IMG/VR virus record: IMGVR_UViG_3300025759_000795
Coordinates: 1 to 21,990 of that record
Source: a virus
Strand: one strand, 5' to 3'
Length of the DNA stretch: 21,990 bases
A program made the translations under genes and the position numbers. This document shows, piece by piece, positions 8,187 through 18,866 of the stretch (the stretch's first letter is position 1; each line of letters begins with the position of its first letter). The notes under the pieces are model-generated. The model saw nothing but the letters and a program-made list of their open reading frames with translations, did not search any database and was not told the DNA's origin.

Positions 8187-9938
8187 ATGGGAAAAGCTTT
8201 ATTATCAGTGCCGAGCTTTACGGCAGGCGAACTATCACCTAGAATGGAGGGTCGTACAGACTTTCAAAAATATTACAGTGCAGGCACAATTATAAATAAT
8301 TTTGTTATACAGCCACACGGACCAGTAACTAGGAGACCAGGATCCGTTTTTGTTTCAGAAGTAAAAAACTCAGCACATAATACAAGATTAATTCCATTTA
8401 GCTTTTCAACAACACAAACTTATATTTTAGAGTTTGGAGATCAGTACATAAGATTTTATAAAGATAGTGGTCAAATTACTTCAGGTGGAGCCGCTTATGA
8501 AATCTCATCACCTTATTTACATACAGAAGTTTTTGATATTAAGTTTGCGCAGAGTGCTGATGTTATGTATCTCACGCACCCTAACCATCCAACAAAAAAA
8601 TTATCAAGAACGGGACACACAAATTTTACTTTAGCAACAGTTAGTTTTACAGAAACTTCAACAACACATCTTTTAAATGGAACGGGTAATTATCCTAAGT
8701 GTGTAAGTTTTTTTGAACAGCGATTAGTTTTTGCAGGCACAATCAATAACCCCCAAACAATTTGGTTTTCTAAATCAGGTGATTATGAAAATTTTACAAC
8801 AGGTACAGCTGATGCGGATGCTATGATTTATACGATTGCATCCAATCAAGTGAATGCCATTGAAAGTATTAAAGCAACAAGAACTTTAATTGTAATGACG
8901 ACTGGCGGTGAATTTACTGTAACCAGTGGAGCAACCCAGGATCCGATTACACCAACAAACTTAAATATTAGAAAACAATCTAATTATGGATCAGCTGGCG
9001 TTGATGCAGTTTCAGTAGCTAACTCAACTTTATTTTTACAAAGAGCGAAAAGAAAAATTAGAGAGCTTGCTTACAATTTTGATTCAGACTCTTATGTTGC
9101 ACCAGATTTAACTATCTTAGCTGAACACATTACCGATAGCGGGGTTGTGCAAATGGATTATCAGCAAGAGCCTTTTAGTATCGTTTGGTGTGTAAGAGAC
9201 GATGGAAAACTTGTTGGTTTAACTTATAACAGGCTTCAAGATGTTGTTGCCTGGCATGGTCACGACTTTGGAGGCACAGATGCTAAATGTAAATCAGTTG
9301 CCGTGATTGACGTAGATACTGCTGAAGATCAAGTTTATGTAATTGTAGAGAGAACGATTGATGGCGGAACAAAAAAATATGTAGAGTATTTATCGACTTA
9401 TGATTTTAATTCTTCACTTACTGAGTTTCATTTTGTAGATAGTGGTTTAGCTTACTCAGGTTCCTCAACAACAACACTATCTGGTCTAAGTCATTTAGAG
9501 GGTCAAACTGTAAAAGTGATTGTAGATGGAGCAACGCATCCTGATCGTACTGTATCTAGTGGTTCCATATCGTTAGAGCGATCTGCAACAACAGCCAAAG
9601 TTGGTCTTGGTTTTATTTCTACTTTACAAACAATGAGATTAGATGAAGGTTTTAGAGGTACAGATCAAACTAAAACCAAAAGAATTTATGATGTAACAGT
9701 TAGATTTTTTGAAACTGTTGGAGCTAAAGTGGGACCAAACGAAAGTAATTTAGATGAAATCCCATTTAGAGATAGCTCGGCATCTATGACGGCACCAGTA
9801 CCTTTATTTACTGGCGATAAGGAAACAGAGTTTCCAAGTGATTATGGAACGGATGGATTTGTCTTAGTCAAACAAGAACAAGCTTTACCAATGACAATCC
9901 TTGCGCTTTACCCAAGACTTGAAACCCATGATGATTAG
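8187..9938 (+). CDS. Tail tubular protein B-like nozzle protein (gp12-like)
   Basis: The hexameric tail nozzle through which DNA exits. The N-terminus (VPSFTAGELSPRMEGRTDFQKYYSAG, residues 8-33 in outline, then NFVIQPHGPVTRRPGSVFV) is diagnostic of phage nozzle/stabilisation proteins, as is LIPFSFSTTQTYILEFG. The middle block FFEQRLVFAGTINNPQTIWFSKSGDYENF also fits. The chain is beta-rich throughout with no membrane segment. At 583 aa it is shorter than T7 gp12 (794 aa). It begins 2 nt after the gp11-like gene without a clear Shine-Dalgarno, so coupled translation is likely. Its 3' end overlaps the next gene by 11 nt. Confidence 0.9.
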   Translation: MGKALLSVPSFTAGELSPRMEGRTDFQKYYSAGTIINNFVIQPHGPVTRRPGSVFVSEVKNSAHNTRLIPFSFSTTQTYILEFGDQYIRFYKDSGQITSGGAAYEISSPYLHTEVFDIKFAQSADVMYLTHPNHPTKKLSRTGHTNFTLATVSFTETSTTHLLNGTGNYPKCVSFFEQRLVFAGTINNPQTIWFSKSGDYENFTTGTADADAMIYTIASNQVNAIESIKATRTLIVMTTGGEFTVTSGATQDPITPTNLNIRKQSNYGSAGVDAVSVANSTLFLQRAKRKIRELAYNFDSDSYVAPDLTILAEHITDSGVVQMDYQQEPFSIVWCVRDDGKLVGLTYNRLQDVVAWHGHDFGGTDAKCKSVAVIDVDTAEDQVYVIVERTIDGGTKKYVEYLSTYDFNSSLTEFHFVDSGLAYSGSSTTTLSGLSHLEGQTVKVIVDGATHPDRTVSSGSISLERSATTAKVGLGFISTLQTMRLDEGFRGTDQTKTKRIYDVTVRFFETVGAKVGPNESNLDEIPFRDSSASMTAPVPLFTGDKETEFPSDYGTDGFVLVKQEQALPMTILALYPRLETHDD

Positions 9939-10377
9939 TATTCAACCGTTCAAAGCAGACCACGCAGAATTTATTTTAAGTCAGCAATTAAATTTTAATG
10001 AACTGTACTTAAAACCTGAACATAGAAAATACGCTTTGTATTTACAACAAATGGGTATGTCGTTCACAGCGTTTGCTCAAAACAAACCGATAGCGGCAGG
10101 AGGCATATACTTGCTTTGGGAAAATGTTGCTGAAGGGTGGGTCATGGCAACGAATGAAGTTTGGAATTACAAACTTGGAATGGCACGTCATTTTAAAAAA
10201 AAAACTGATGTGTTAATTGAAACGAATAAGATTAAAAGATTACAAACTTCCGTCAAAGCTGATTTTTGGCATGGTCAAAAATTTGCAAAATGGATGGGAT
10301 TTGAAAAAGAAGGATTAATGAAACATTACGGACCAGATGGTTCAGATTACATAAGATATGCGAGGATTATAAAATGA
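9928..10377 (+). CDS. gp13-like internal protein with GNAT acetyltransferase-type fold
   Basis: A 149-aa protein. AAGGIYLLWENVAEGWVMAT, the central helix, then IKRLQTSVKADFWHGQKFAKWMGFEKEGLM..YGPDGSDY, follow the strand-helix pattern of GNAT acetyltransferases and of the T7 gp13-like family (PF11090, from memory). No clear Q/R-x-x-G-x-G/A acetyl-CoA pyrophosphate loop is visible, so it may be a structural relative rather than an enzyme. T7 gp13 is 138 aa and needed for virion assembly, and the position between nozzle and gp14-like genes is the same. I chose the ATG at 9928 (overlapping the nozzle gene by 11 nt) over an upstream TTG at 9901; ATG 9931 is equally possible. Confidence 0.82.
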   Translation: MMISIQPFKADHAEFILSQQLNFNELYLKPEHRKYALYLQQMGMSFTAFAQNKPIAAGGIYLLWENVAEGWVMATNEVWNYKLGMARHFKKKTDVLIETNKIKRLQTSVKADFWHGQKFAKWMGFEKEGLMKHYGPDGSDYIRYARIIK

Positions 10378-10823
10378 GTTTTTTTGGTGATTTATTAGCG
10401 GGACAAGCAGCACAAAAAGCGTCTAACTATAACGCTTCACTTATGGAGCGAGACGCAAAAGTAAAAGAACAGAATGCAGAACAAGGTTATAAAGTTTTTG
10501 AACAATATGACTTACCAAAATTTAATTACTATGCAGAGAGACAACAAAGTACATTAGAAAATCAAATAGCAGGATCAGGTGTTGAGATTGGTACAGGAAC
10601 TGCTTTTGATATTATTGCTGAAAATCAATACATGATTGATACAGATAGAGACATGGCTGTTTATAATGCAGAGGTTGTTAAAGAGCGTGGTTTTAACGAT
10701 GCAATTATGACAAGAGCAAGTGCTAACGTAGAACGATTTAGAGGCAGAGTTGCTAAAAGAGCAAGTTATTTTAAAGCAGCAGATTCTTTATTAACAGGTG
10801 GAAAAAAAATGGGGTATTTTTAA
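10374..10823 (+). CDS. Internal virion protein, gp14-like
   Basis: A 149-aa, mostly helical protein. The MSFFGDLLAGQAAQKASNYNA start, the acidic-basic helix around QNAEQGYKVFEQYDLPKF, the SGVEIGTGTAFDIIAENQYM block and the repeated alanines around VAKRASYFKAADSLL resemble podovirus internal core proteins equivalent to T7 gp14 (196 aa). In T7 that protein is ejected first and forms a pore in the outer membrane. There is no clear classical transmembrane helix, as in T7 gp14. The start overlaps the previous stop as ATGA (10374-10377), with a GAGGAT ribosome-binding site. The assignment rests on position, size and pattern. Confidence 0.8.
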   Translation: MSFFGDLLAGQAAQKASNYNASLMERDAKVKEQNAEQGYKVFEQYDLPKFNYYAERQQSTLENQIAGSGVEIGTGTAFDIIAENQYMIDTDRDMAVYNAEVVKERGFNDAIMTRASANVERFRGRVAKRASYFKAADSLLTGGKKMGYF

Positions 10824-10825
10824 CA

Positions 10826-12949
10826 ATGGCAATTAAAATTTATCAAACACAAATAAGACCAGATACGAAAACGAGTGCTGTAGAAACAAGGTCTGATATG
10901 AGAGTCAGTCAAGGCACAGCTACACAGGTTGGAAATGCTATAAAAGGATTAGGAAAAACAGCAGAGAATATTTATGCGGAATACGAAACAAGAAAATCAA
11001 AAAATGAAGTGCAAGACGCTGCAAGAAAAATAATAGAAGGAGACGATACTTTTGAAGGTATCAGCATGGCTAAAGAAAAAGCAATGCAAATGACCGATCC
11101 TGATGAGGCAAAAGCTTATTATAAAAAAGCTTTAGATCAAGCTTTAACTAAAAAACCAAATTTTAAACACCGTTTTTCTAATAGATTATTTGATACTTAT
11201 ATTAAAAAACAATCTTTAGAAGATAATATTGCTATCAGTAAATATTCTAATAAAAATTTTATTTTTAAATCTCAATCTTCAGACAAAGAAAAAATACAAT
11301 TTTTAACAAAAAAAATTATTTATGGTGAGACAGAAGAAATAAAAAACAATGCACGATCTGAACTTAACTCAATGTTTGCAAGCAATGAGTTTAAAAATTT
11401 ACATGGTAAAAATGCAGACGTTTTAAAAAAAGCAACAGAAACAGATATAGCTTTTTATAAATCAAAAAGAGCAATAGACGTTGACTCTAAAGCTGGTTTA
11501 GAACTTGCAAAGAAAAACAAAAATATTTCTGTTGAAAATTTTGAAAAACTAAGAACTTACGCAAAAACTTCTAACGCAAAGAAAAAAGCTTTAAACACCA
11601 CAAATATTGCAAAAATAAATCAAGGTTTAGATGATTTTGTTATTCCTGATGTTAATAGCATTAAAGAAGCAGAAAAAATTGCTTTAGCAATTAATGATGA
11701 AAAACAAATTGCTAATATTAATTTAATTAAAAAAAAAGGTGACTTACTTCTTAAATTAAAAGAAATGAGCATGGATGAAATTAATAGTGCAGCATCCTCA
11801 GCTTATAAAGTTGCTAATACTACAGGTGCAGACGCTGATTTACGTTTTAGACTTGATTATATTAATAAATACAAAAATAATTTACAAACTGGTTTAAACA
11901 AAGATCCAATTACCACTGCTAATAAAGTGGGTGTATTCCAAACAACACCACTTAACATTTCTGATTTTTTGAAAAATCCAATGAATGCAGAAGATTTTAA
12001 TAATCATGCTGCGGAAAGAGTCAAAAATGCAAAAGCTATTTCTGAATATTATAATTCACCTTTGCAGTTTTTTACTAAATCTGAAAAACTTGCAATAGAG
12101 AATGCAATTCAAACAACAACAGATCCAAAGACTTTAATATCTATATCCAGTGGTATCGTTAAAGCTTTCGGACCAGACGCAGAACTTGCTTTTAAAGAAA
12201 TATCAAAAGAAAATAAGTTTTTAGGTTATCTTGGTGGTCTTACTTTAGTGAATGGCGCAAATGACCAGGCTGTTTTAGATGCTGCTTATGGATATAGTTT
12301 ATCAAAAACAGATAAATTAAAAAAAAGTTTTTCTTCTTCTGATGCCACTTACCAAAAAGTTATCAGTAAATATAGAGAGGCTTTTCCATTATCAGGTCAA
12401 CAAGAAACTTACGATAACATTATAGAAGGAGCTACAAACATTTATAATGCAAGAATGTATAAACAAGGTAAAGATTTTTCTACATTTAATGAAAAAGAAT
12501 TCAAAAAAGCTTTACAATCCGCAGCTGGTCGTCAAGGTGATTTTGGAGGAATAATAAATTATCAAGGAAGATTTTTACCTATACCTAATTATGTTAAAGA
12601 TAATCAATTTGAAGAACTTGTTGAGTTATTAAAAAAACCTGAAATTTTTGCTAAAGCCACAGGCAATGATGTACCCAAATATCTTAGTATTCGAGAAGGA
12701 AAAGCAAAATTAAAAACAGCCAATCCATTTAAAGAAGGTGATCCAACATTTATTGCAGTAGGATATGGTAAATATATTTTAGCTCAAGGCGATCATCCTT
12801 TTAATAAAAATGCTAACCCTGAATTTATTGCTTCAAGTAAACCTAATGTAAAAACTGGAATTAGTTATTTAGTTGTTGATTTAAACAAAATTAAAACTGA
12901 AATCCAAGGTTTAGAAACTGAAATTTTAGGTAGAAATTCAAGAAATTAA
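10826..12949 (+). CDS. Internal virion protein, gp15-like
   Basis: A 707-aa protein, close to T7 gp15 (747 aa), which builds the periplasmic tunnel during DNA ejection. It is rich in Lys, Asn and Ala, almost entirely helical and free of membrane segments. The region around GIVKAFGPDAELAFKEISKE (about residues 446-465) followed by YLGGLT and AVLDAAYGYSL resembles gp15-like proteins of marine podoviruses, from memory. The C-terminal 130 residues are more globular (NYQGRFLPIPNYV, VPKYLSIREG, FIAVGYGKYILAQ). No enzyme motif was found. It starts 2 nt after the gp14-like gene with no Shine-Dalgarno, and ends 2 nt before the next large gene. Confidence 0.82.
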   Translation: MAIKIYQTQIRPDTKTSAVETRSDMRVSQGTATQVGNAIKGLGKTAENIYAEYETRKSKNEVQDAARKIIEGDDTFEGISMAKEKAMQMTDPDEAKAYYKKALDQALTKKPNFKHRFSNRLFDTYIKKQSLEDNIAISKYSNKNFIFKSQSSDKEKIQFLTKKIIYGETEEIKNNARSELNSMFASNEFKNLHGKNADVLKKATETDIAFYKSKRAIDVDSKAGLELAKKNKNISVENFEKLRTYAKTSNAKKKALNTTNIAKINQGLDDFVIPDVNSIKEAEKIALAINDEKQIANINLIKKKGDLLLKLKEMSMDEINSAASSAYKVANTTGADADLRFRLDYINKYKNNLQTGLNKDPITTANKVGVFQTTPLNISDFLKNPMNAEDFNNHAAERVKNAKAISEYYNSPLQFFTKSEKLAIENAIQTTTDPKTLISISSGIVKAFGPDAELAFKEISKENKFLGYLGGLTLVNGANDQAVLDAAYGYSLSKTDKLKKSFSSSDATYQKVISKYREAFPLSGQQETYDNIIEGATNIYNARMYKQGKDFSTFNEKEFKKALQSAAGRQGDFGGIINYQGRFLPIPNYVKDNQFEELVELLKKPEIFAKATGNDVPKYLSIREGKAKLKTANPFKEGDPTFIAVGYGKYILAQGDHPFNKNANPEFIASSKPNVKTGISYLVVDLNKIKTEIQGLETEILGRNSRN

Positions 12950-12951
12950 AT

Positions 12952-15900
12952 ATGTCTTTTTTTGTAAATGAAAATCAAACTTTAGAGGCAGCTGCTACAG
13001 AAAATAGTTGGAGCCAGGGAGATAAAACTGGTTTCAAAGAAAATTTAAAAGCAGCTTATAACTATATGGTTATGACCGAACTTTCTACTTCAGAAAGAAA
13101 TAACCTGATGAATAAATACGGTGAAATTATAGATACAGCTAGAGGCTTAGGTCATACGAATTTAACTAATCCTTTTGTAGATGAGCCTATGGAGTCTGAA
13201 GCTGGAGGCGGTGTATTGGATGAGACTGGAGGTTTTGAGTCTGAAGAAAATCGTATATCCGCATTCCATCAAAAATTAAATGAATTACAAAAAACAGATT
13301 TTAATTTAGCGCAAGCGTTAAAAGAAAAAGGAATTGATACCAGGGAAGGTATAGAGCAACAAATTAAAATAGATATTAACGAAAGTTTTAATAAATTTTT
13401 AGACGTTAAAAGAAGATCAACAGGTAAAGGAACTGTTGGATCTTTTTTTGGTATGGGTGGTGCAATATTTAAAGATCCGCTTATTCAAGCAACTATCCCT
13501 ATAAGCATGGGTTATTCTATACCTAGAAACTTTTTAGCAGCCGCTGGTAAGATTGCTTATATGGAGGCAATTATTGCTGCAACAGCAGAAACTGCAATTC
13601 AATATGGAGCAGGAGCTTCTGAATATAGAGAGAGAATGGGATTAGATGGTGAAGGCTTAAAAAGAATTGGTTATGCTACAGTTGCGGGCGCACTTGGCGG
13701 ACCACTTTTATTTGGTTTTTTTAAAGGTATAGGAAAAACAATAGATGTTTCTAAACAAGGTTTAGGGGTTGTTAGATCTAAACTAGAAGATTTACCCATA
13801 CAAAGATTAAGAGCCATGTATAGAGAAATGGCAAAAAAAAATCCTCAGTTTGCTACAAAGAATGCTGACAATTTTAAACCTGAGCAATTTACAGAAGAGA
13901 CTCCTTTTGAAGTAACACCTGCTGGGAATAGCGAGCATGTTGCAAGATCTAATGAAGTTATGAATTTAGTTAATGGTACAGGTAAAATAGAAACTTTAAA
14001 TGAGCCAACAATCATTCCTGTTAAGCCAAAAGACATTAAAGATTACAATGCTGATATAAAAACTTATGATCCTGATGATTTAATTTTTGATCCGCAAACT
14101 TTTCAATATAAATTAGACGGTGATGCCGAGGGTGTTTCTAACAAATTAAAAGATGTAACCGAGTGGGATCAACCTAGCGCGGGTGTAGCATTAGTTTATG
14201 AATATAGAGACGGTAGAAAAGTTATTGTTGACGGACATCAAAGATTAGGTCTTGCAAAAAGATTAAAACTTAGAGGTCAAGAACCAAAATTACCAGCATA
14301 TACTTTTAAAGAAGCAGACGGCATTATACCCGATCAAGTCATGGTAAAAGGTATGTTAATGAACCTAAGAAATAATACTGGTTCAGCCGTTGATGCTGCA
14401 AGAGTTATGCGTTCTGATTATCAAGTTGATTGGAATAAAGTCAAAGCTAGTTTGCCGCCAAGGTCAAAACTTGTAAAAAACGCTTTTGGTTTATCTAAAT
14501 TATCAGATGATGCCTGGGGTTTATTTTTAAATAAAAATGTTAATGAAGATTTGGCATCATTAGTTGGTTCAATTTTAGATAATAAAAAAATTCATAATAA
14601 AGTTTTAGCATCATTAATGAATAGAAGATTTAACAATCTTACAGAGATGGAAAATGTTATAAACTCTATTAAGAATAGTGCGGTTGTAAAATCTCAACAA
14701 GAAACTTTATTTGGTACTGATTTTATAGAAGAAAGTTTATTTATCGAGAAAGCACAACTTGTGAGCTATGTTACCAGTAATAAAAAAAGGTTAAAACAAG
14801 CCTTTCAGACAATAGTTAAATCTGATAAAGATTTATCAGCTGCTGGTAATATATTAAAAAAAGAACAAAATATTGAACAAGGAATAGAAAATGCGAAAAT
14901 CCTCGAAAAACTTAACACCCTCTCAACAAGAGTTGGAAAACTCTCAGACGATCTTAACGCCTCAGCAAAAATCCTTAAAGAAGGAAATGTTGCAGAAGCA
15001 AGGCAATCGGCTCAAGAAGCTATCCAGCGAGCAGTTGAACGAGGCGATTTTGATAGGAACTTTGTTAGCGGACCAATCAGAGATAATGCGGTTGAAACTC
15101 CGACACGAACAATATCTAAAATCGAAAAACCAGAAGTCAATCAAAGAACAATAGAAGAAGCTAAAAGCTTTGATGATATACAAAACAATACTAAGGGTAT
15201 TGAAAAACAAACCAACGACTATGACAATCAATTTTTTGGTGAAGAATTACAACAACCAAAAGGTAGAACAGAAATTAATACTGAAGAACAAAAATTAGTT
15301 GATGAAATTAAAAATGCAGATCCAACTGATGCCAATGTTCAAAAATATGAAAACTCTAGTTTATATAAAAACAAATTAGAGGAAGCTAAAAAGTTTGAAA
15401 TTAACACAAATGAAAGACCAGGGTATGTTGCGGATGAAACAGCTGATTTTTGGAAAACAAGAGATTATGGAAATTTTGGCGTTGGTTTAGAAAATTTTAT
15501 TAAAAAATTTTATGGATCAGGTGCAGCAAAAAAAGAAAAAAAACTTGTTATTGTGATGGGACCCACAGCTTCTGGTAAGTCATCTGTCATCAATAAAGAT
15601 TATAAAAATTATGGAGCATATTTAGCAGACTCAGACGAAATTAAAAAAGTTTTACCTGAGTTTGAAGGTGGTTTAAACGCAAACGGGGTTCATCCAGAAT
15701 CTAGTTTTATTAATACTAGAATTTTAGAAAGAGCTGCTCAAAATGGAGATAATATTATTTATCCAACTACAGGTAGAGAAGCATCTAAACTAAATAATGT
15801 TATTACTGAATTTGAAAAAGCAGGGTATAATATTGAGGTTGTAAATGTTAAAATAAATGCAAATGAGGCAAAACTTAGAAATATTGCAAGAACATTTACA

Positions 15901-16257
15901 GGAAATAGAGTTATTAGTAATAATTTATTAGATGAAAAGACTTTAAAAAAAATAGAAAATAATTATATAAATATTAAAGATGAATACAAAAGTAAACAAA
16001 TCGACAATTCTCAAAGAACTAGCACAAAAGACGTTGAAGGCTTACAAGATAGCAGATCAAGAATTCTACTTAAAAATTTCGAAGAAGAAATCGAACAAGT
16101 CGCTCAAAGACTTGACCCCGAAACCAAAATCCCTGGAAACAGAATAATCAATCAAGAAACTGGGGAAACCCAGGTTGAAGAAATAACTATTAGAAGTATG
16201 CTTGACGATGAAGCTCAAGATACAGCATTAATAAATAGAATGAAGGATTGCGTATGA
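12952..16257 (+). CDS. Large ejected protein: membrane segments, ParB-like and zeta-kinase domains
   Basis: 1101 aa in the position of T7 gp16. Residues 1-150 are helical and acidic. Residues 160-262 are Gly/Ala-rich and hydrophobic (GSFFGMGGAIFKDPL; YATVAGALGGPLLFGFFKGI), fitting a membrane channel segment of ejection proteins. Residues about 352-470 are a ParB/sulfiredoxin-like domain with VDGHQRLGLAKRL (426-438). Residues 570-720 are charged coiled coil; 720-860 form a low-complexity linker. Residues 862-1015 are a zeta-toxin-like kinase: Walker A GPTASGKSS (870-878), D893/D895 in the DSDEIKKVLPEF motif, HPESS (914-918), TGR (940-942) and R980. There is no T7 gp16 lytic transglycosylase domain. 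The mix recalls 'polyvalent' proteins of phages and conjugative elements. It ends with an ATGA overlap with the next gene. The virion location is inferred from position. Confidence 0.85.
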   Translation: MSFFVNENQTLEAAATENSWSQGDKTGFKENLKAAYNYMVMTELSTSERNNLMNKYGEIIDTARGLGHTNLTNPFVDEPMESEAGGGVLDETGGFESEENRISAFHQKLNELQKTDFNLAQALKEKGIDTREGIEQQIKIDINESFNKFLDVKRRSTGKGTVGSFFGMGGAIFKDPLIQATIPISMGYSIPRNFLAAAGKIAYMEAIIAATAETAIQYGAGASEYRERMGLDGEGLKRIGYATVAGALGGPLLFGFFKGIGKTIDVSKQGLGVVRSKLEDLPIQRLRAMYREMAKKNPQFATKNADNFKPEQFTEETPFEVTPAGNSEHVARSNEVMNLVNGTGKIETLNEPTIIPVKPKDIKDYNADIKTYDPDDLIFDPQTFQYKLDGDAEGVSNKLKDVTEWDQPSAGVALVYEYRDGRKVIVDGHQRLGLAKRLKLRGQEPKLPAYTFKEADGIIPDQVMVKGMLMNLRNNTGSAVDAARVMRSDYQVDWNKVKASLPPRSKLVKNAFGLSKLSDDAWGLFLNKNVNEDLASLVGSILDNKKIHNKVLASLMNRRFNNLTEMENVINSIKNSAVVKSQQETLFGTDFIEESLFIEKAQLVSYVTSNKKRLKQAFQTIVKSDKDLSAAGNILKKEQNIEQGIENAKILEKLNTLSTRVGKLSDDLNASAKILKEGNVAEARQSAQEAIQRAVERGDFDRNFVSGPIRDNAVETPTRTISKIEKPEVNQRTIEEAKSFDDIQNNTKGIEKQTNDYDNQFFGEELQQPKGRTEINTEEQKLVDEIKNADPTDANVQKYENSSLYKNKLEEAKKFEINTNERPGYVADETADFWKTRDYGNFGVGLENFIKKFYGSGAAKKEKKLVIVMGPTASGKSSVINKDYKNYGAYLADSDEIKKVLPEFEGGLNANGVHPESSFINTRILERAAQNGDNIIYPTTGREASKLNNVITEFEKAGYNIEVVNVKINANEAKLRNIARTFTGNRVISNNLLDEKTLKKIENNYINIKDEYKSKQIDNSQRTSTKDVEGLQDSRSRILLKNFEEEIEQVAQRLDPETKIPGNRIINQETGETQVEEITIRSMLDDEAQDTALINRMKDCV

Positions 16258-18866
16258 GTTATAAGCAATGTTTATCTAACGCTCTTAATGAAGGTACAAT
16301 TAATAAAAAACAATTTGATGAGCAATCAGAATTAATTGAAAATTTAGAAAGAACTTATAAGGGTCAAGGATTAAATCCAACAGAGGCAAGTATAGAAGCT
16401 GCTAAAAGAGCTTATGATACTGCTAAGGTTGCAGCAGCTTATAAAAAAAGAAACAATAGATTGAAAATTGCAGCTCAACAAAGAATAGATTTTAATATGA
16501 AAACTTACCGTAATGCTAAAGGTGAAGAAGATTACGCTTCTGGTTTAAAAGCTATATTTGCCAGAGACGATCAAGCTAATTTTGCAAGTTTAGAAACTTT
16601 AATTCAACAAGAATACTCTATTGTTCAAAAATATTTAGATGATTTTTTACATGAGTTTAGATACGGACCATTAGAAAAAGTTAGAGGTATTGTAGGCAAC
16701 GAAACAACAAAAAGAAAAACTCTTACTTCTAATTTTATGAAAGCTTTGTTTGGTGAGGAAACTACAGATCCTCTTGCAAAACAATTAGCAAAAGCCTGGT
16801 CTGAGGCAGCTGAACTTGCAAGACAAAGATTTAATAAATTTGGTGGTCGTATAGCAAAACTTATAGATTGGAGAATACCACAATCTCACGATTTTATAAA
16901 AATTAGAAAAGTGGATGATGCAACTTGGATAGATTTTATTTTACCATTACTTAACATAAGCAAAATGATAGATCAAACAACTGGTTTACCATTTACGCCT
17001 CAATCTATTAGACTTGCTCTGCGAGAAGTTTACGAAACATTAAGTTTAAATGGTACTAATAAATTACTTGCTAAAGATGCGTCTAAAAGAAGATCAGCAA
17101 CTTCTCAAAGATTAGATCATCGTTTTTTAATTTTTAAAGACTCAGACTCTTGGTTAAGCTATCAATCTCGTTTTGGTAAAGGTGATAATATTTTAGCAAT
17201 CTCTCAAGATCATTTGATGAGTATTACAAGAGATACTGCATTAATGAGAGCATTGGGACCAGACCATGAAGCAGGATATTTATATGCAAAAAGTATAGTT
17301 AGACAAAAAGCAGCTCTTGATGCAAGATCAGAACTTCAAGGTACTTTTAATAGAAAAACTTTAAGATTTAGAAATGAAGATGAAAGAGCTGAAGCGATTT
17401 TGGGTGGAAGTATAACTGGAGAAGCTGGAGTAGATAATTTATACATGTTATTTAAAGGTCAACTTAATAAACCTACAGATAATCCTTGGGCTAGAGGATT
17501 GGCTGGTTTAAGGCAGTTAATAACTGGTGCTTATCTTGGTTCAGCCTCTATTGTTGCATTAACAGATTTTAACTGGCAAAGAATTACAAACCAATTTAAC
17601 GATTTACCTGCTTTTAAATCTGCAAGAAGAACTTTAGATTTATTTAGAGAAGGTTTGTTTTCAGGTGATAAAACAATTGGTAAAGTTGCAGTAAGATCAG
17701 GTTTGATAGCTGAAAGCTGGACTACTTTTGCTCATCAACAATCAAGATTTTTTATTGAAAATAACGGTATGGAATTAACTCAAAGATTAGCTGATGGAAC
17801 AATTACTTTATCAGGTTTATCAGGCATGACCCAAGCAGGTCGTTGGGGTTTTGGTATGGAGTTAATGGGTTTTTTTGCTGATAATGCAAATAAAGCTTTT
17901 AATCAATTAGATAAAAAATTTCAAAGAGGATTAAAAAGATACGGCATTGGCGAAGGAGAATGGGAAGTTATAAGAAAAACAAAATTATATGATGCAGGTA
18001 TTGATGATCCTAAAATGGTTGGTCAAAATATTGTTTTTTTAAGACCCGATGACATTAGAGCTAGAACAGATATACCAGAAACTGCGGCAGAAGATTTATC
18101 AACAAAATTATTTGATTTTATAAAATCAGAAACTGAATATGCTGTGCCTTCTGTATCAGCAAAAGGTAGAGCTTGGATTTTAGGTAATGCAAGACCAGGA
18201 ACTTGGGCAGGTGAACTAATGTTATCTGCTGCAATGTTTAAACAATTTCCAATAACATTAATGTACACTCATATTGCTCGTGGTTTAACTCAAAGTGGTT
18301 TTCCAGGAACATTTAGATACATGGGCGATCTTATTATTACTGGATCTATTTTCGGTGCATTTACCATGGAGATAAGAGAAATTACTAAGGGAAGGCAACC
18401 TACTTCTATTGATTATATTAAAGAAAACCCAGGTGAATATTTTTTAAGAGCTTTAGTTACTGGAGGTGGCTTAGGTTTATTTGGAGATTATTTTGTTGCA
18501 GATCATAACAGATATGGAAGAACAATATCAGAGACAATTCCTGGACCATTAGTGCAATTTATTGCTGATCTTTACGGTTTATCAGCTGGTAATGTTTTAG
18601 ATTTAGTTAGAGGAAGAGAAGCTAATTTTGCAGGAGACGCTGTTAAATTTGTAAAAAGAAACACTCCAGGAGCTTCTATTTGGTATTTAAGGTTGATTTG
18701 GGAAAGAATGATTATGGATACTGTTGCAAGAATGGTTGATGATGATTTTGATGCAAAAAATAGCAGACAAATAAATAATTATTTAAGAAATACACAACAG
18801 GAATATTGGTGGCAACCAGGAGAAACATCACCTTCAGAGACTCCAAATATACCTTTTTCACAATAA
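16254..18866 (+). CDS. Very large phage protein, probable internal virion/ejection protein
   Basis: An 870-aa protein. The N-terminal 90 residues are charged helices. Then comes a helical body including RRSATSQRLDHRFLIFKDSD and a SYQSRFGKGD block. A hydrophobic segment lies near residues 414-440 (ITGAYLGSASIVALTDF), a conserved block at about 520-575 (SGLSGMTQAGRWGFGMELMG; KRYGIGEGEWEVIR), and membrane-prone Gly-rich segments near 687-747. This pattern matches a protein family I remember from alphaproteobacterial phages and prophages, function unknown. Together with the 1101-aa protein it seems to share the role of T7 gp16. I chose ATG 16254, which overlaps the previous stop as ATGA, over the TTG at 16248 because of this overlap and the AAGGAT just upstream. 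It ends in a proline-rich tail. Confidence 0.82.
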   Translation: MSYKQCLSNALNEGTINKKQFDEQSELIENLERTYKGQGLNPTEASIEAAKRAYDTAKVAAAYKKRNNRLKIAAQQRIDFNMKTYRNAKGEEDYASGLKAIFARDDQANFASLETLIQQEYSIVQKYLDDFLHEFRYGPLEKVRGIVGNETTKRKTLTSNFMKALFGEETTDPLAKQLAKAWSEAAELARQRFNKFGGRIAKLIDWRIPQSHDFIKIRKVDDATWIDFILPLLNISKMIDQTTGLPFTPQSIRLALREVYETLSLNGTNKLLAKDASKRRSATSQRLDHRFLIFKDSDSWLSYQSRFGKGDNILAISQDHLMSITRDTALMRALGPDHEAGYLYAKSIVRQKAALDARSELQGTFNRKTLRFRNEDERAEAILGGSITGEAGVDNLYMLFKGQLNKPTDNPWARGLAGLRQLITGAYLGSASIVALTDFNWQRITNQFNDLPAFKSARRTLDLFREGLFSGDKTIGKVAVRSGLIAESWTTFAHQQSRFFIENNGMELTQRLADGTITLSGLSGMTQAGRWGFGMELMGFFADNANKAFNQLDKKFQRGLKRYGIGEGEWEVIRKTKLYDAGIDDPKMVGQNIVFLRPDDIRARTDIPETAAEDLSTKLFDFIKSETEYAVPSVSAKGRAWILGNARPGTWAGELMLSAAMFKQFPITLMYTHIARGLTQSGFPGTFRYMGDLIITGSIFGAFTMEIREITKGRQPTSIDYIKENPGEYFLRALVTGGGLGLFGDYFVADHNRYGRTISETIPGPLVQFIADLYGLSAGNVLDLVRGREANFAGDAVKFVKRNTPGASIWYLRLIWERMIMDTVARMVDDDFDAKNSRQINNYLRNTQQEYWWQPGETSPSETPNIPFSQ

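Follow-up and report, generated by a model that had tools for sequence, protein, structure and literature searches.

A zeta-type kinase domain in the variable slot of a probable virion protein of an HTVC010P-like podovirus

Iyer et al. described phage polyvalent proteins with zeta, RelA/SpoT and ParB domains, inferred that they are injected into the host, and noted that P1 DdrB is located in the phage head (Iyer et al. 2017; PMC5512222). Injected zeta kinases were proposed earlier, in MuF-fused phage proteins (PMC5512222), and the idea of such a kinase is thus already known from Iyer et al. Here we analyze a 21,990-base virus record from IMG/VR (IMGVR_UViG_3300025759_000795, hereafter the window), in which an open reading frame (ORF) of 1101 amino acids (aa) carries a zeta-type kinase domain. 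The protein is probably a polyvalent-type virion protein of an HTVC010P-like podovirus, built as a fixed scaffold with one effector slot that holds the zeta kinase, and delivered at infection. In the open-licence literature we found no description of a ParB-zeta scaffold beside a pilot gene, of its exchange with RelA/SpoT or of the altered substrate pocket reported below, and no mention of pelagiphages together with zeta toxin. Computation shows the domain with its catalytic residues retained, purifying selection on it among relatives, the place of the gene and the exchange of slot contents.

The domain belongs to the Zeta_toxin superfamily (PF06414 fold). A sequence-only reading of the window had placed a zeta-like kinase domain at 15535-15996 (residues 862-1015), and this was borne out by Pfam: PF06414 Zeta_toxin covers residues 860-1012 (E 1.6e-15, 57.5 bits against a cut-off of 22.3), and AAA_33 also scores above its cut-off on the 1101-aa protein. 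No relatives emerged from viral contigs when a single sequence, of the entire protein or of the domain, served as query, and alignment-based searches were needed to find them; a single-sequence search of the PDB gave only noise. The profile and alignments used here comprise 26 homologous zeta domains from viral contigs, the window included. Against the PDB, this profile has zeta toxin 1gvn as its top match (E 4e-15), with PezT at E 9.5e-8; the order after zeta, with adenylate-kinase-type P-loop hits set aside, is Pnkp1, PezT and AvrRxo1. The AlphaFold2 model of the window domain (predicted local distance difference test, pLDDT, 86; predicted template modelling score, pTM, 0.81) likewise matched zeta 3q8x/1gvn and PezT best in Foldseek (E 1.4e-7; template modelling score, TM, up to 0.70), followed by bacterial polynucleotide kinases (TM 0.59-0.63) and, further down the ranking, AvrRxo1 (TM 0.66). 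Together, the Pfam, PDB profile and fold matches rule out a chance P-loop match. The sequence-only reading had proposed a profile search or structure prediction against zeta and PezT and had said that a best match in some other P-loop family would speak against it; zeta and PezT came out on top by profile and by AlphaFold2 fold, and therefore that objection falls away. The domain also has a fold match to BFVD A0A6J5LTH6, a protein from an uncultured phage that is 1134 aa long and bears the name anti-CBASS protein Acb1; a link between zeta domains and anti-defence functions is possible. The domain and its active site lie as follows, where counts refer to the 26 homologues.

15529..15987, + strand: zeta-type P-loop kinase domain, residues 860-1012 (PF06414; PDB profile and fold matches)
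15559..15585, + strand: Walker A GPTASGKSS with catalytic lysine K876, equivalent to zeta K46 (invariant, 26/26)
15628..15636, + strand: D893-S-D895, with D895 the presumed catalytic base, equivalent to zeta D67 and AvrRxo1 D193 (invariant)
15691..15702, + strand: HxES motif, with H914, E916 and S917 (invariant, 26/26)
15760..15777, + strand: YPTTGR, with P938 at the zeta E116 position (proline in 23/26) and T940 and R942 equivalent to zeta T118 and R120
15877..15909, + strand: arginines R976, R980 and R986 (invariant, 26/26), R980 being zeta R158 and R986 zeta R171

The landmarks named in the sequence-only reading are present (GPTASGKSS at residue 870, HPESS at 914, TGR at 940 and R980). Its acidic motif was partly right: DSDEIKKVLPEF stands at residue 893, but one residue, not two, separates DSDE from KK. 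Residue numbers in our alignment to zeta toxin agree with the published zeta numbering. In that enzyme D67, E116, R158 and R171 are essential and E100 and T128 partly dispensable (PMC6356619), and E100, T118, R120 and T128 contact UDP-N-acetylglucosamine (UDP-GlcNAc) (PMC3062530). The counterparts of K46, D67, R158 and R171 (K876, D895, R980 and R986) are invariant in all 26 homologues, and the phage domain is likely to be active as a kinase, judging from these residues. The substrate pocket differs. Proline takes the E116 site in 23 of the 26, the window included, and in the window the E100 site is threonine and the T128 site valine. The T118 and R120 equivalents are present in the window; across the family, T118 is replaced by valine in 17/26 and R120 is kept in 6/26. 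In addition, the alignment shows a VHxESS motif common to AvrRxo1 and the phage domain and absent from zeta and PezT.

Purifying selection acts on the zeta domain in relatives. Three close pairs, with synonymous divergence (dS) of 0.18-0.40, gave ratios of nonsynonymous to synonymous substitution (dN/dS) of 0.07, 0.13 and 0.07. The ratio was 0.43 for the pair of loci L078 and L079, in which divergence is much greater in the zeta regions than elsewhere in the gene.

The zeta domain is one part of a larger architecture, an N-terminal region followed by a ParB/Noc-like region, a variable slot and a 44-aa C-terminal tail. The ParB-like region upstream of the zeta domain and the slot-like position of that domain are additions to the sequence-only reading.

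12952..16257, + strand: polyvalent-type protein with zeta domain, 1101 aa (ORF; the position upstream of a pilot gene recurs in zeta-bearing loci)
13006..13929, + strand: conserved N-terminal scaffold, residues ~19-326 (local iterated hidden Markov model, HMM; 75 non-identical proteins)
14056..15045, + strand: ParB/Noc-like region, residues ~369-698, with FQYK and DGHQR motifs (phrog_10691, E 2e-37; phrog_21, E 9e-20)
15046..16119, + strand: variable slot of linker, zeta and linker, residues ~699-1056 (contents differ among relatives)
16120..16251, + strand: conserved C-terminal tail, ~44 aa (local HMM)

Two weakly hydrophobic stretches (194-212 and 239-257) lie in the N-terminal region. The AlphaFold2 model of the ParB/Noc-like region (pLDDT 90) matches Noc/ParB CTPases in Foldseek (E 7.6e-6, probability 1.0). 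No ParB-type Pfam family occurs among the matches of the 1101-aa protein up to E 1, and we therefore call the region ParB/Noc-like rather than DdrB-like; it may bind nucleotide or DNA. With a ParB/Noc fold and a zeta kinase in one protein, encoded within an internal virion protein block, the protein is of the polyvalent type.

Loci with related proteins were gathered by two routes, via the pilot protein and via zeta. The N-terminal region is present in 75 non-identical proteins. Zeta occurs in 23 of them, in every case C-terminal to the ParB region, and the shared ~44-aa tail closes 21 of the 23. This tail comes after the slot whether the scaffold carries zeta, carries RelA or has no insert. 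The query biases the counts in the zeta-derived locus set; in the pilot-only set of 80 loci, the gene upstream of the pilot carries zeta in 14 (near-copies counted), RelA/SpoT in 8 and a RelA-like insert in 7. RelA/SpoT occupies the slot in L014, L015, L016, L017, L020, L021, L029 and L032, with the Pfam RelA_SpoT score over the cut-off in L021 and L014 and under it in L020 and L029. Divergent RelA-like inserts in L043, L046, L052, L065, L077 and L055 are linked by profile comparison only. Those of L077 and L055 are called no more than RelA-like, because Pfam gave no match on them and their hhalign match to the RelA set was moderate (75%, E 2.5e-5). The slot is without an insert in L012, L004 and Dunaliella viridis virus SI2. 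A GNAT domain in the L065 slot was rejected as a clean replacement, since a RelA-like stretch adjoins it and it is thus an addition.

A natural presence/absence pair is provided by L046:6619-9996 and L048:7574-9997, whose scaffolds are 96% identical outside gaps and differ by a ~300-aa RelA-like insert at the slot. The L078 and L079 proteins (L078:1243-4614 and L079:6322-9822) share 98-100% identity over most of the part up to residue ~750; from there through zeta and the C-terminal tail, identity is 60-80%. Their pilots and ParB regions are nearly identical, a pattern in which recombination at the slot is possible. Mapped onto a tree of 86 pilots, the presence or absence of zeta requires 10 changes, 9 of them forced by well supported branches, or 8 when loci lacking the scaffold are removed. 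The 12-row clade containing the window includes zeta (the window and L092), an empty slot (L012), zeta again (L078 and L079) and RelA/SpoT in two groups. Exchange of slot contents among relatives is the simplest reading of these sequences.

Other related proteins extend the range of arrangements. In a gut phage relative of the scaffold (L006:6795-10004), the N-terminal region is followed by a GH108 lysozyme domain. Large phage proteins at L123:30-4295, L124:3-3299 and L134:7826-13048 carry a tandem pair of zeta domains, that of L134 with two ParB-like regions as well. Contigs of bacterial metagenome-assembled genomes labelled Aquisalinus and Polaribacter (L173:3487-6747 and L183:3490-6783) encode a protein with the N-terminal region, ParB and zeta, followed by a pilot, and the arrangement is therefore not confined to SAR11 phages.

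The capsid protein of the window is 60-69% identical to capsids of HTVC010P-type pelagiphages, and a SAR11-type host is therefore likely. In line with the sequence-only reading, the gene lies in an internal virion protein block, its neighbours matching PHROG families of internal virion proteins and of structural ones.

9901..10823, + strand: two small internal virion proteins (phrog_4177, E 2e-29, and phrog_308 internal virion protein, E 2e-9; phrog_418 internal virion protein, E 1e-12)
10826..12949, + strand: 707-aa upstream neighbour at the T7 gp15 position (by gene order alone)
16248..18866, + strand: virion pilot-type protein, 872 aa, the next gene (phrog_684 virion structural protein, E 7e-155)

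The tail tube genes precede these, and the order of tail tube genes, two small internal-virion-family proteins, 707-aa gene, 1101-aa gene and pilot gene agrees with T7 genes 12 to 17. A tblastn search with the 707-aa protein gave no match in phage records; homologues of the 872-aa pilot occur in phiV10/SPN1S-type phages, Dunaliella viridis virus SI2 and pelagiphages. The zeta-bearing gene stands directly upstream of the pilot gene in ~28 zeta-bearing loci (near-copies counted). In the window, a gap of 2 bp separates it from the upstream gene and it overlaps the pilot gene by 10 bp, so that an antitoxin gene would fit on neither side. The absence of an adjacent epsilon-type antitoxin gene had been pointed out before; none of the window proteins that were scanned matched an antitoxin either, and the locus is not an epsilon-zeta module. 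Elsewhere in the window, a 98-aa ORF on the minus strand (914-1210) has a TMEM65 match slightly under the Pfam cut-off (24.3 against 25 bits).

We infer packaging, ejection, substrate and effect. The 1101-aa protein would be packaged together with the internal virion proteins and travel into the host with the pilot protein and the DNA. As infection begins, the zeta kinase would move a phosphate from ATP onto a hydroxyl of a nucleotide-containing metabolite, and this would alter host metabolism or block a nucleotide-based response. Ejection with the DNA is plausible from gene order. Several observations count against this account. Profiles compared with T7 gp13-gp16 gave no convincing similarity, the best T7 ejection-protein match being weak (9.6% probability) and outside the zeta domain; T7 homology thus failed as proof of ejection, which therefore rests on gene order and the PHROG labels. 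Zeta toxin needs E116 for its activity, and with proline at that site the phage domain could have lost its activity or acquired a different one, although the invariance of HxES and the low dN/dS speak against a loss. These dN/dS estimates were obtained on relatives, the window's own gene having no close homologue, and the pilot tree is a quick search in which loci scored as lacking the scaffold include truncated contigs.

The substrate invites several other readings. The sequence-only reading raised phosphorylation of UDP-GlcNAc, as by zeta and PezT, which would block wall synthesis or weaken the wall at entry. Zeta toxin is indeed the top sequence and fold match, the window keeps the T118 and R120 equivalents that contact the UDP phosphates, and Iyer et al. 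assign such a role to phage MuF-zeta fusions. The pocket did not bear this out: UDP-GlcNAc as substrate, although possible, is not supported because E116, E100 and T128 are not kept, and most relatives lack T118 and R120 as well. Family members with other substrates are also known. AvrRxo1 is a zeta-like kinase without the UDP-GlcNAc motif that phosphorylates nicotinamide adenine dinucleotide (NAD) (PMC5087710), and the gonococcal zeta toxin ng-zeta1 prefers UDP-N-acetylmuramic acid and acts at another hydroxyl, the 4'-OH (PMC5923241). We regard a UDP-GlcNAc kinase as unlikely. An AvrRxo1-like kinase of adenine nucleotides or NAD, directed at NAD metabolism or NAD-based anti-phage defence, would suit the shared VHxESS motif, the match of D895 to AvrRxo1 D193, the fold match to AvrRxo1 and the variety of substrates among Gram-negative family members; AvrRxo1 nevertheless ranks under zeta in sequence and fold, and VHxESS may be a general trait of the larger family, which leaves this option with modest odds at best. 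A polynucleotide kinase that repairs or phosphorylates nucleic-acid ends, aiding the incoming genome or countering tRNA-cleaving defence, finds some encouragement in the polynucleotide kinases among the next fold matches, a weak match to the phrog_505 polynucleotide kinase and a ParB-like region that could keep the domain near DNA. Zeta and PezT stand higher in sequence, profile and fold, however, and we think this quite unlikely.

Other readings deny the domain an enzymatic role at entry. It might be a catalytically dead structural insert or an ATP-dependent switch of the ejection machinery, in keeping with the loss of the E116 acid and with a slot that can be empty and is thus not required for assembly in every relative. 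The remaining catalytic residues are invariant among divergent homologues under purifying selection, and RelA/SpoT as the replacement enzyme suits an effector better than a structural part, so that we consider this improbable. Alternatively, the protein could stay outside the virion, being made late and working within the cell, for example in assembly, as the place of the gene within the late block would allow. Against this stand the PHROG matches of its neighbours to internal virion and structural proteins, the injection that Iyer et al. infer for such proteins, and the presence of P1 DdrB in the head (PMC5512222); a protein outside the virion is accordingly a minority prospect. A delivered, polyvalent-type scaffold protein with a zeta kinase that is very probably active remains the explanation that we prefer.

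Few bacteria or phages in the ocean are as abundant as SAR11 and its phages, and little is known of the cargo that pelagiphage virions bring into the cell. The same slot holds zeta, another enzyme or nothing, and these phages may therefore deliver interchangeable enzymes with their DNA. Because the enzyme found in place of zeta, RelA/SpoT, is an alarmone-type pyrophosphokinase, control of host nucleotides is suggested, and the swap points to a common theme of such control at entry. More speculatively, and with less than even confidence, the protein may represent a general delivery scaffold of HTVC010P-type and other podoviruses, with a cassette slot for nucleotide-modifying enzymes (zeta kinases and RelA/SpoT-type pyrophosphokinases) that alter a host nucleotide pool or signal as soon as infection starts; the zeta kinases of this scaffold would form a subgroup whose changed pocket (HxES, and proline for E116) serves a substrate other than UDP-GlcNAc. 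Given a conserved scaffold and an exchangeable slot, reading slot contents is a direct route to virion-borne effectors.

Compared with known systems, the phage domain shares with zeta toxin and PezT (PF06414, of the epsilon-zeta type II toxin-antitoxin systems) the P-loop kinase fold, the Walker A lysine and the equivalents of D67, R158 and R171. Unlike them, it is fused within a large protein and lacks an antitoxin gene, and it has proline for E116, does not keep E100 and T128 and carries HxES instead. It resembles AvrRxo1, a NAD 3'-kinase, in its zeta-like fold, VHxESS and the D193-equivalent aspartate, whereas AvrRxo1 is a secreted effector of a plant pathogen and is less similar to the domain than zeta, which ranks first. 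MuF-zeta polyvalent proteins, such as the minor head protein of cyanophage PSS2 (MuF plus zeta, 1499 aa), also place a zeta kinase inside a phage head or ejection protein with predicted entry alongside the DNA; the window protein is without MuF, and its scaffold is a ParB-containing podovirus protein beside the pilot gene. DVVG_00008 of Dunaliella viridis virus SI2 and pelagic relatives have the same N-terminal region, ParB region, C-terminal tail and downstream pilot, but their slot is empty; DVVG_00008 has 792 aa. The RelA/SpoT domains described in polyvalent proteins (Iyer et al. 2017) occupy this very slot in L014, L020, L021 and L029, although they differ from zeta in fold and in chemistry, which is pyrophosphate transfer.
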